64,000 nucleotides of DNA, from assembly GCA_039636795.1 (NCBI GenBank), contig CP143430.1, positions 1,426,001 through 1,490,000 on the forward strand, written 5' to 3'. The first letter of the stretch is position 1, and each line of letters begins with the position of its first letter. A program made the position numbers and the translations under genes. The notes under the pieces were generated by a model. That model was not told the origin of the DNA. It did not search any database and was given only the letters and a program-made list of their open reading frames with translations. Below, one piece after another: positions 14,599-17,481 of the stretch. The stretch is from Micrococcaceae bacterium Sec5.1. Its GTDB lineage: Bacteria; Actinomycetota; Actinomycetes; Actinomycetales; Micrococcaceae.

Positions 14599-14766
14599 CC
14601 CGGCTGTGAACACACAACCGGGAACCTCACCGCAGGAATTGCCGGCCGTGGTCATCCAGCGACTCCAAACGCATGCGGCGACTATGATCGTTCATAGAGG
14701 GACCCCAGGTTGCCTCGTGCAACCGTGTTCCGGTCCCGTGAATCGTCACTCGAAGAAGAGGTTCAA

Positions 14767-15804
14767 GTGTCTCCTGCACCAATGACCCAGCAGTATTCCA
14801 CGATTTCGCCGTCGCTCGCCGTCGGCACCGACGAACCCGACCGCAACCTGGCGCTGGAACTCGTCCGTGTCACCGAGGCCGCGGCAATTGCCGGTGGCCA
14901 CTGGGTAGGTTTCGGCGACAAGAACAAGGCAGACGGCGCCGCCGTCGACGCCATGCGTTCGTTCCTTCACACCGTCCACTTCAATGGCGTCGTGGTCATC
15001 GGTGAAGGCGAAAAAGACGAAGCCCCCATGTTGTTCAATGGCGAGCAGGTTGGTGACGGCACCGGTCCCGAGTGCGATGTCGCCGTGGACCCCATCGACG
15101 GAACCCGCCTGACCGCCCTCGGCATCAACAACGCCCTTGCCGTCCTGGCAGTTGCCGAACGCGGCTCCATGTTCGATCCGTCCGCGGTCTTCTACATGGA
15201 AAAGCTCGTCACAGGCCCTGAAGCTGCCGACATGGTGGACCTGCGCCTGCCCGTGAAGCAGAACCTGCACCTGATCGCCAAAGCCAAGGGCGTCAAGGTC
15301 AACCAGCTCAACGTCATGATCCTGGACCGCGACCGGCACCGCCCGCTCGTGGAAGAAATCCGCGAAGCCGGTGCACGCACCAAATTCATCATGGACGGCG
15401 ACGTCGCAGGTGCCATCGCCGCAGCCCGGTCCGGAACCGGCGTCGACGCGCTGATGGGCATCGGTGGAACCCCGGAAGGCATCGTTGCCGCCTGCGCCAT
15501 CAAGTCCCTCGGCGGTGTTATCCAAGGCCGCCTGTGGCCCACGTCGGACGACGAGAAGCAGAAAGCGATCGACGCCGGACACGACCTCGACCGCGTCCTC
15601 TCCACCAACGACCTCGTCACCTCGGACAACTGCTACTTCGCGGCCACCGGCATCACCGACGGCGACCTCCTCCGCGGCGTTCGCTACTCGAAGGACCGCG
15701 TACTGACGCAGTCCATCGTGATGCGTTCCAAGTCCGGCACCGTTCGGTTCGTTGATGCTGAGCACCACGCATCCAAGTGGGAGACGTACGCGCGCAAGCC
15801 GTAA
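14767..15804 (+). CDS. glpX: Class II fructose-1,6-bisphosphatase
   Basis: 345 residues from GTG 14767, which has AAGAGG (14756-14761) 5 nt upstream; ATG 14782 is an alternative and the longer 14710 frame lacks support. The GlpX metal and phosphate-binding segments are present: IGEGEKDEAPML, DVAVDPIDGTRL, FIMDGDVAGAI and GIGGTPEGIVAACAIKSLGG. It hydrolyses fructose 1,6-bisphosphate, the committed step of gluconeogenesis, and is the main FBPase in actinobacteria. It is convergent with femX across a 735-bp repeat-rich gap. Confidence 0.96.
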   Translation: MSPAPMTQQYSTISPSLAVGTDEPDRNLALELVRVTEAAAIAGGHWVGFGDKNKADGAAVDAMRSFLHTVHFNGVVVIGEGEKDEAPMLFNGEQVGDGTGPECDVAVDPIDGTRLTALGINNALAVLAVAERGSMFDPSAVFYMEKLVTGPEAADMVDLRLPVKQNLHLIAKAKGVKVNQLNVMILDRDRHRPLVEEIREAGARTKFIMDGDVAGAIAAARSGTGVDALMGIGGTPEGIVAACAIKSLGGVIQGRLWPTSDDEKQKAIDAGHDLDRVLSTNDLVTSDNCYFAATGITDGDLLRGVRYSKDRVLTQSIVMRSKSGTVRFVDAEHHASKWETYARKP

Positions 15805-15831
15805 CCCCTCCCTGCTTGTCGCGCCTTGAGC

Positions 15832-15915
15832 GCGAAAAAGCGCCCCATCGCTCTGCGGCTATCTCCTCGTACCTCGTCGATTTGATGCCGCTGACGCGAT
15901 AGGGCGCTTTTTCGC
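15832..15915. repeat. Interspersed palindromic element, copy D
   Basis: Arms GCGAAAAAGCGCCC (15832-15845) and GGGCGCTTTTTCGC (15902-15915) are perfect complements. Between them lies a divergent core, CATCGC-TCTGCGGC ... GCCGCTGACGCGAT, with the CTCNT..CCTCG loop features of the other copies. The arm ends with GCGCTTTTT on the plus strand, so this copy doubles as a good intrinsic terminator for glpX. Confidence 0.7.
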
Positions 15916-16053
15916 TGTCTGGGTGCGTTTGCGCCAGCCGGCTCCGGTTGCGCGCGATTTTTTTGGGGGGTGGTGACACCTGAGCTCGATTTCGCTGCGC
16001 AAATGGAGTGGGGACGCGCGGATTTGGGTGTCGGGGGTCTGTTGGTGAGTCAC

Positions 16054-16510
16054 CCGGGATGATGCCTGTCGGCAGCCGGGGCACGAGGTGCGCTTCCGCG
16101 TTAGGTTCGACGGCGGCGCTCGGGCGAGTGCCGCCGTCGTGCTTTCCGGGGTGGGCGGCCGCCGTGGGTGTGCCGTCGCCACCTACTTTGATCCTGCAGG
16201 CCGTCCGACATGCCGTCATTCCGGGCGTGTCGCAGTGAGTGTTGACTCAAAGAGGGTCATGACGGTACGCGGCCCTGGCCGTTGCCGGGTCGCCGGGGAA
16301 GGTGCATGTGGTCAGCCGGGGCACGAGGTGCGCGTCCGGGTTAGGTTCGACGGCGGCGCTCGGGCGAGTGCCGCCGTCGTGCTTTCCGGGGTGGGCGGCC
16401 CCTGTGGTTGTGCCGTCGCGACCTACTTTGAGGCTGTACGTGGTCCGACACGCCGGGATGGCCGGCGTGTCACCGCGTCGGCGGCGTCAAAGTGGGTGGT
16501 GGAGGTACGC
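16054..16510. repeat. 240-bp tandem duplication with conserved predicted fold
   Basis: Two units, offset by exactly 240 bp (for example CAGCCGGGGCACGAGGTGCG at 16073 and 16313), span about 16054-16270 and 16294-16510. Each has a hairpin GACGGCGGC-CTCG/CGAG-GCCGCCGTC (about 16107-16138 and 16347-16378), then ACTTTGA, an inner hairpin, TCAAAG, and GGTACGCG. The inner hairpin is GACATGCC/GGGCGTGTC in unit 1 and GACACGCCGG/CCGGCGTGTC (16447-16471) in unit 2. The rest of the 735-bp gap (15916-16053) is G/C-rich sequence in which I see nothing definite. No convincing gene lies in the region. Confidence 0.8.
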
Positions 16511-16539
16511 GTTCCTTGTGTTGACTTGGGGGAACTGGC

Positions 16540-17481
16540 CTAGCGGAGTTTGTCGCGGAGTTTTCTGGCCAGTTGGTAGGCGCCGTAGCGGAGTTTGTTC
16601 ACTGGGAGGTCCCAGGTGCCGGGGTAGGCTACTTCGCGACCACCGAAGGATTTCTTGAAGGACGTGAAGCCCGCCCATTTGTGGTCCGGCTGGTCTTCAG
16701 GGGCCACGCCCCAGAGATCCACCTGCTTCAGGCCCTTCTCCTTGGCATCTGCCATGAGAGTGACCAGGAGCGGAATGCCGGCACTGAGCTTGCGGTGGGT
16801 GTCATCCAGGGCGGCATGGGCATAGGTTCGCGTGTCCGAGGAATCGTAAGTGAAAGCTGCAGCGATCGGCTCGCCCTCGAGTTCGGCTATGAACAGCGTT
16901 CCGGCGCCGGACGGTAGCAAAGATTCAGCCACCTGGGTGAGGTACTCATCGCTTTGTGGCTTGAAGCCGTTGCGTGCTGCCGTCAGGTGGAGGAAATGCA
17001 GGAGAACTTTGATGTCCGCAGGATCCTGGGACGCGCGGAACGTCACGCCCTTCTTGTGGATGTTGCGGTAGAGGTTCCGGTTGGTCGGCTTCATTGCGGC
17101 AAGAACGTCCTTGAAATCGCCCTCAAGGTCCACGATCCAACTCAACTCCGGCTGTAGGTTGACGGGTGCCGGCTGCAGGCCGCGGGAACGAAGGAGCGCA
17201 TCGGCCTCGGATGCTGTGAAGCCGGCTGATACAGGTTCCATGCGCACGAAGACAGCACGTTCCTTCTTCGCCAATTCCACCAAGGCCGCCGTCGCGGCGT
17301 CGAAGGCGTCCACGGACTTTGCCACAGGCCCATAAGGGGCGTAGATGACTTTGCCGGCCGGGTTCTTTTCCTCTATCGCGAGGAAGCTCCATCCGGGACC
17401 TGACTGCTCGTGGACCCGGCGGCCGAGCGAGCGCTGGACGGCAGCCCAAGCGGGGGTCTGCAGAAAGAAGTCCACGCTCAC
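16540..17481 (-). CDS. FemX/FemAB-like peptidoglycan bridge aminoacyltransferase
   Basis: 313 residues forming two GNAT-like subdomains of the FemABX family: N-terminal FFLQTPAWAAVQRSLG and IYAPYGPV, central LKPTNRNLYRNIHKKGVTF-type segment (MKPTNRNLYRNIHKKG), GTLFIAELEGEPIAAAFTYD, and the C-terminal YPGTWDLPVNKLRYGAYQLARK found in cell-wall bridge transferases. These enzymes add amino acids from aminoacyl-tRNA to the peptidoglycan stem Lys; Arthrobacter has A3-alpha type Ala/Thr/Ser bridges, which fits. It overlaps manA by 4 bp (GTGA), so both are translated from one message. Confidence 0.88.
   Translation of the reverse strand: MSVDFFLQTPAWAAVQRSLGRRVHEQSGPGWSFLAIEEKNPAGKVIYAPYGPVAKSVDAFDAATAALVELAKKERAVFVRMEPVSAGFTASEADALLRSRGLQPAPVNLQPELSWIVDLEGDFKDVLAAMKPTNRNLYRNIHKKGVTFRASQDPADIKVLLHFLHLTAARNGFKPQSDEYLTQVAESLLPSGAGTLFIAELEGEPIAAAFTYDSSDTRTYAHAALDDTHRKLSAGIPLLVTLMADAKEKGLKQVDLWGVAPEDQPDHKWAGFTSFKKSFGGREVAYPGTWDLPVNKLRYGAYQLARKLRDKLR

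Follow-up and report, generated by a model that had tools for sequence, protein, structure and literature searches.

What is the repeated, foldable sequence that lies between glpX and a femX-like gene in Micrococcaceae bacterium Sec5.1, and does it belong to an RNA, a gene or a DNA element? The locus is part of a 64,000-nucleotide (nt) stretch of contig CP143430.1 (positions 1,426,001 to 1,490,000, forward strand), referred to here as the window and used for all coordinates that carry no genome handle. An earlier interpretation made from the sequence alone had described a tandemly duplicated 240-bp element and proposed a structured RNA or DNA. On balance, the analysis favors the view that the window carries, twice in tandem, a non-coding DNA palindrome that is dispersed through the chromosome of this soil bacterium. 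The partner of this palindrome would be a gene on the same chromosome that is bracketed by the same palindromes and encodes an AbiEi-like DNA-binding half fused to a Vsr-like nuclease domain; the nuclease would mobilize the palindrome, with gene and palindrome co-evolving.

The duplication contains two copies of a dispersed palindrome

A repeat search of the window delimited a tandem direct repeat of 236 nt on the forward strand, consisting of unit 1 (16041..16276, the reference copy) and unit 2 (16281..16516), which are ungapped, 81% identical and spaced 240 nt from start to start. Each unit carries a short GC-rich hairpin, which is followed at a distance of about 30 nt by an imperfect palindrome of ∼99 nt with the ends GTRCC..GGYAC. 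Palindrome copy 1 occupies 16169..16270 (covariance model R1, E 6.6e-18 in its own genome; both strands match, the + strand better), its arms GTGCCGTCGCCACCTACTTTGA and TCAAAGAGGGTCATGACGGTAC enclosing an inner hairpin. Copy 2, at 16409..16510 on the + strand, is the top-scoring match (E 1.5e-19). Model R1 was built from 14 palindrome copies, both window palindromes included. When compared with shuffled sequences, the fold of unit 2 reached a z of -8.1 (0/200 equal or better), and that of unit 1 was moderate (z -3.0, 2/200). The three pairings claimed for both units in the sequence-only reading are present. The tandem duplication it described, with its period of 240, is real, but the core unit is the ∼99-nt palindrome and not the 240-bp duplication.

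A DNA search with both units returned, besides the window, chiefly fragments of hairpin and palindrome, and the covariance model was needed to find further copies. The own chromosome contains 12 distinct palindrome places at E <= 0.01 (at E <= 1, the two strands together gave 25 matches), and under stricter filters the model matched 44 of 101 genus genomes. A set of 114 distinct copies from 84 sources (E <= 0.01; 226 matches on both strands) was assembled from the best-scoring matches listed plus those of the own genome, and is thus a non-random sample.

The outer stem of the palindrome covaries

A covariance search of relatives, proposed as a check in the sequence-only reading, supports the pairing of the outer stem. 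Across the 114 copies, outer-stem positions 6, 10, 11, 12, 14 and 17 covary when pairing is compared with that of re-dealt partners (z 4.0 to 7.2, upper estimates because re-dealing leaves relatedness in). Positions 0-4 and 7-9 are nearly invariant, positions 13, 15, 16 and 18 show no excess pairing (z -1.3 to 1.7), and pairing is at chance level past position 20; the ends of the palindrome are therefore sharp. Two units are too few to reveal covariation; the first 14 copies were negative as well, pair counts over them giving nothing above shuffles, and RNAalifold recovered the outer stem only partly from the same 14 (11 pairs).

Other features of the element are constrained as well. The CTTTG and ACC blocks are nearly invariant, the inter-arm length is 56 or 57 in 105/114 copies, and two arm types recur, CACC..GGTG and TGACC..GGTCA. 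The inner hairpin is fully replaced in some copies (L145, L123, L135 and L138), and the folding energy of natural inner segments is more favorable than that of chimeras (-25.4 vs -22.1 kcal/mol; 88 copies, 600 chimeras). Two parts of the earlier pairing argument fell away. In the inner hairpin, the supposed compensatory change alters only one side of the pair (T.G to C-G), and the loop end of this stem holds a G-G mismatch in unit 1. The GACGGCGGC...GCCGCCGTC hairpin, cited as conserved pairing, is identical in sequence in both units and therefore carries no covariation information.

The period of 240 nt equals 80 codons, and a 151-residue open reading frame (ORF; 16088-16543) spans both units, so the statement that the units share no reading frame was wrong as worded. 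This ORF has no Pfam match. In 33/114 relatives, a stop codon falls within the element in the phase of this ORF. A decayed gene was rejected as a candidate, since the ORF lacks a Pfam match and its frame is not kept in relatives. The preference for a structured element over a decayed gene is thus upheld by the 114 copies, the covarying outer stem and the absence of a conserved frame.

The proposal of a structured RNA is not supported, and an RNA is the less likely reading. Rfam gave no family at gathering score (best sub-threshold match 21.7 bits, cut-off 70), simple scans of the region gave no promoter- or terminator-like site, and a GC-rich hairpin followed by a T run occurs 0 times in 15780-16560, against a shuffle mean of 1.3. 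Base-pair covariation in the outer stem is equally expected of a DNA hairpin. The palindrome is more probably a DNA element, given that it also brackets a gene whose product is predicted to be a DNA-binding nuclease.

An AbiEi-nuclease gene is bracketed by the palindrome

The candidate partner gene (G000:C1:4200752-4201618) lies on the same chromosome as the window, encodes 289 residues and is bracketed by window-type palindromes. Its product joins an AbiEi-antitoxin-like DNA-binding half to a domain resembling Vsr and the EDxHD homing endonucleases. By Pfam, 17/17 partner-type proteins contain AbiEi_4 and DUF559, and none of the 17 has a Y1 transposase domain. The structure of the partner protein aligns with AbiEi and Vsr-like folds: the AbiEi fold includes the DNA-binding N-terminal half, and the catalytic domain is PD-(D/E)XK-like or EDxHD, with conserved acidic residues. 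The nuclease-type residues are invariant in all 17 proteins; D206, E216 and D218 are among the invariant positions. The partner gene is flanked by a polyprenyl synthetase gene (PF00348) and a gene with a weak SMI1/KNR4 match, and at this locus no AbiEii nucleotidyltransferase toxin gene adjoins it. Separately, a conserved short hairpin, GGCCCCGGTTCG..CGAACCGGGGCC with a TATGACTCGTAACG-like loop, lies between the polyprenyl synthetase and AbiEi/nuclease genes in many genomes (L151-L180).

Many homologues in the genus have ∼100-bp palindromes near the stop codon and upstream, mostly 65-85 nt before the start, and the arm sequences differ by homologue (GGGGCACTTTG, AATGCGTAACTTT, TTTCCCCACCTTT, AAATGACCACCTTTG and others). 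Flanks were compared with 8 shuffles at the best 80 of 182 named loci, whose titles are all Arthrobacter, Paenarthrobacter or Pseudarthrobacter. The downstream palindrome beat all 8 shuffles at 63/80 loci and the upstream palindrome at 50/80. Across the genus, homologues usually retain flanking palindromes, and the palindrome sequence shifts with the gene lineage. One class, with GGGGCAC, is dispersed in 27/101 genus genomes with spans of 67-69 nt and zero control hits; it is absent from 19 genomes, namely those in which the top protein hit scores 400 bits or more. Matches to the covariance model (both strands, at most 39 scored per genome) average ∼28 in these 19 genomes vs ∼2 in the other 82.

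Homologous genes with different palindromes occur in other genera

The protein profile matches 88/248 genomes of the order and 30/85 genera at E <= 1e-25. Of 22 loci in other genera, 17 have gene flanks that resemble each other more than in any of 66 shifted controls. Six non-genus palindromes were searched against six genomes together (E <= 0.01), and five of them occur at several places in their own genome (G256 19, G322 11, G236 9, G230 5, G243 4). Only six off-diagonal hits were obtained: three link a pair of genomes that belong to one genus, and the other three are weak (E above 1e-4). The palindromes that bracket these homologous genes are unrelated in sequence and are dispersed almost solely in their own genome or genus.

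The G256 palindrome was followed through its genus, g43, in which the gene has a patchy distribution; the palindrome is present in 5/60 genomes. All 4 genomes with the protein at >=59% identity (the query genome and three others) carry it; G229 and G366 have copies distant from the gene, and G367 has a single match, at the gene. In another family, a homologue in G210 (L353) has a strong 67-bp palindrome, TGCACAGATTTCCCCG..CGGGGATTTCTGTGCA, upstream and no significant downstream counterpart.

Copies often lie behind genes, and sites turn over

A simple ORF caller was used to place the 114 copies. The neighboring genes are convergent for 64 copies, tandem for 36 and divergent for 4; another 8 overlap a called ORF, and the remaining 2 border the edge of a locus. 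Among 176 measured gene 3' ends, 53 are 1-30 nt from the palindrome, 35 are at 31-100 nt, 77 are farther, and in 10 the stop codon falls within an arm, always at one position. These counts are not independent, as related genomes supply the same site repeatedly. The window copies conform to the convergent arrangement. Pfam matches on either side confirm the reported position of the duplication: glpX (14710..15804, + strand; PF03320, E 1.1e-139) points its 3' end at the element, and the femX-like gene of the FemAB family (16540..17481, - strand; PF02388, E 8e-24) has its stop codon at a distance of 30 nt from palindrome 2. Genome G008 carries three tandem units ∼210 nt apart at this glpX-femX site. 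A site beside tRNA-Lys is common to the own genome and G033.

In the stop-overlapping copies (L148:1427-1528 and nine more), the arm runs over the end of the upstream gene, including its last codons and its stop (..VAS-stop = TTCCTGACC). The opposite arm matches in L148 and L065 (GGTGAGGAAGC and GGTCAGGAAGCC, respectively) and does not match in L022; the gene upstream of the L148 copy belongs to the LssY_C family.

Comparison of one site across relatives provides evidence of turnover. The own copy at G000:C1:704687 has conserved flanking genes, and the model finds no copy in the corresponding loci of 16/16 relatives. G088, whose left gene is 94% identical, has a plain hairpin there, and a strict motif places a different palindrome family with GCCGAGGGGT arms at the orthologous site in 14/16 relatives (L380-L394). 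This presence/absence indicates that such sites turn over; the flanks are too diverged from those of the 16 relatives for a junction or a direction to be read. This second family at L380-L394, unrelated to the window palindrome, has arms GCCGAGGGGTTRGCTTTCGGC / GAAAGCYAACCCCTCGGCG and up to several tandem copies.

A proposed mobile gene-repeat system and its rivals

The proposed mechanism draws on the dispersal of the palindrome, the covariation of its outer stem, the bracketing of the gene and the lineage-specific arms. It also takes in the genome- or genus-specific dispersal seen elsewhere, the invariant nuclease-type residues and the presence/absence at one site. Excerpts of PMC3985639 describe binding of AbiEi to long inverted repeats in the promoter that drives its own expression. 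Because of this precedent, the N-terminal AbiEi half is likely, by analogy, to recognize the arms, whether these are present in duplex form or as a hairpin that is extruded or single-stranded. The nuclease half would then nick or cut the DNA at the palindrome, and new intergenic copies, often right behind stop codons, would arise through repair or strand transfer. Local duplication would yield tandem arrays like that of the window, and co-evolution of gene and palindrome would lead to lineage-specific arm sequence. The fused nuclease-like domain and the bracketing therefore suggest mobilization in the manner of repetitive extragenic palindromes (REP) and REP-associated tyrosine transposases (RAYT), by unrelated enzymes. 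More tentatively, a widespread mobile gene-repeat system of Actinomycetota can be envisaged, in which an AbiEi-nuclease fusion is bracketed by a ∼65-110 bp palindrome, co-evolves with it and spreads non-autonomous copies of it to places behind genes of the host, in parallel to RAYT/REP but from unrelated parts.

Several observations weigh against this reading. In the flank test, 17/80 downstream and 30/80 upstream flanks fail against the 8 shuffles, and in a stricter cross-pair test outside the genus 10/21 loci are above the 99th percentile. Genomes G119, G073, G005 and G012 have, in this order, 31, 17, 12 and 10 matches to the model although their protein hits are at best partial or distant, and G397 has 6 places of the G256 palindrome with no gene hit. 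Conversely, G392, G159 and G399 have a remoter protein (56, 51 and 35%) with no palindrome match, and the G129 palindrome was found solely at its gene. The association of gene and palindrome in the genus is confounded with phylogeny, and the shared genus sites (glpX-femX, tRNA-Lys) mean that many copies are old and that present mobility is not required. Binding, cleavage, mobilization and any benefit to the host are features that we infer from sequence.

The nearest rival, an operator network without mobility, is considered unlikely. Here the AbiEi-Vsr protein would be a host DNA-binding regulator or nucleoid protein and the palindromes its binding sites; those at its own gene would autoregulate, scattered ones would act as road-blocks, terminators or domain boundaries, and the nuclease half would be idle or employed elsewhere, the sites having spread otherwise. 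This explanation is encouraged by Streptococcus agalactiae AbiEi, which, in the same excerpts (PMC3985639), represses its own promoter through inverted repeats with inward-facing CTTTTA/TAAAAG, a motif not unlike the CTTTG/CAAAG of the palindrome. An upstream palindrome mostly 65-85 nt before the start, retained copies at shared sites, covarying arms and fixed spacing would also suit it. However, a palindrome directly behind the gene at 63/80 loci is unexpected for an operator, few copies are at promoters (64/114 between convergent genes, 4 between divergent ones), and the nuclease residues are invariant in 17/17 proteins.

Less probable still is a role of the palindromes as common hairpin terminators or as RNA structures at 3' ends, which would end or stabilize transcripts and have no connection to the nuclease gene. 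A covarying hairpin is compatible with this, as are the 53/176 gene 3' ends at 1-30 nt, the 10 with a stop inside the arm and the 64/114 convergent placements. Yet the window has no terminator-like T run and the element no Rfam family, a terminator needs neither near-invariant CTTTG and ACC blocks nor fixed spacing, palindromes are found upstream of the nuclease gene too, and dispersal is genome- or genus-specific with a single partner gene. A miniature inverted-repeat transposable element (MITE) moved by an unrelated DDE transposase is very improbable: terminal inverted repeats of ∼21 nt, sharp ends, a dispersed ∼100-bp unit and presence/absence at one site would fit, but the recurrently bracketed gene, with changing arms, is AbiEi-Vsr (no search was aimed at a transposase gene with such ends), and decaying copies would not be expected to keep their inner blocks and a constant length. 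No target duplication was identified at the one site compared with 16 relatives, whose flanks are too diverged for a junction to be read.

Relation to known systems

The AbiEi-nuclease system most resembles, in its apparent working, the REPtrons. RAYT enzymes are HUH Y1 transposases. In excerpts of PMC8266576 and PMC3733652, REPtrons comprise REP or bacterial interspersed mosaic elements (BIME) together with RAYT (TnpA-REP), the cognate gene being bracketed by co-evolving dispersed palindromes; a REP is there a 20-40 bp palindrome with a GTAG or CGTC tag at one end (PMC3733652, in part). Shared features are the dispersed extragenic palindromes, clustered or in tandem (12 places in the own genome, 19 in G256), a single gene for a DNA-processing enzyme bracketed by its palindromes, and apparent co-evolution of enzyme and repeat into several families of differing sequence. 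In contrast to REPtrons, the protein is AbiEi_4 plus DUF559/Vsr-like and not an HUH Y1 transposase, the repeat measures ∼65-110 bp, and it showed no tag rule of the GTAG or CGTC kind.

Other known kinds match in part. The AbiEi fold with its DNA-binding N-terminal half is common to the AbiE type IV toxin-antitoxin systems, but a C-terminal Vsr-like nuclease replaces the usual end, the own gene has no AbiEii toxin beside it, and the repeats flank both sides and are dispersed. A catalytic-type domain with conserved acidic residues is shared with Vsr/EDxHD nucleases; unlike homing endonucleases of this type (I-Bth0305I), the gene lies outside any intron or intein, is bracketed by palindromes and has many gene-less copies scattered around the genome. 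Like MITEs, the element is short, non-coding and dispersed, with terminal inverted repeats, whereas its arms covary, its inner block is conserved, its length is fixed and its partner gene is no known transposase. The gene-repeat system thus lacks a defining feature of every known kind with which it was compared. Among the matches listed from the open-access literature (titles and abstract starts, with subscription journals and preprints outside the scope), no palindromes were tied to AbiEi/DUF559 genes, and in excerpts of PMC12306157 an Arthrobacter is present solely in a table of counts.

Pfam assigns no function to DUF559, and such proteins are read by name as antitoxins. If the proposed system is real, many orphan AbiEi/DUF559 proteins would gain a function and this gene class testable substrates, the origin of intergenic repeats in Actinomycetota would be explained, and evolution would have arrived at the REP/RAYT arrangement repeatedly, each time with another enzyme. 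Annotation as antitoxin or defense from the AbiEi domain alone could then mislead. The many natural specificities open recognition to study by lineage comparison.

Additional features of the locus

The GACGGCGGC..GCCGCCGTC hairpin lies beside the palindrome and is not part of it, at 16108..16139 in unit 1 and 16348..16379 in unit 2. By a strict pattern it is 5' of only 7/114 palindromes and was therefore ruled out as a component of the element; a variant was seen by eye in all three G008 units. It is a separate element neighboring the palindrome. The hairpin is also repeated in the own and other genus genomes, and in L002 and L023 it stands alone, away from palindromes of this kind.

On the 5.43-Mb chromosome, dnaA is at the contig start and all 12 own palindrome copies are <=1.45 Mb from it, a clustering that may only mirror the location of conserved genes. 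Right behind glpX, an inverted repeat at 15820-15927 (GCGAAAAAGCGCCC..GGGCGCTTTTTCGC, arms of 32 nt, 81% complementary), which a simple terminator scan did not call, is possibly the glpX terminator.
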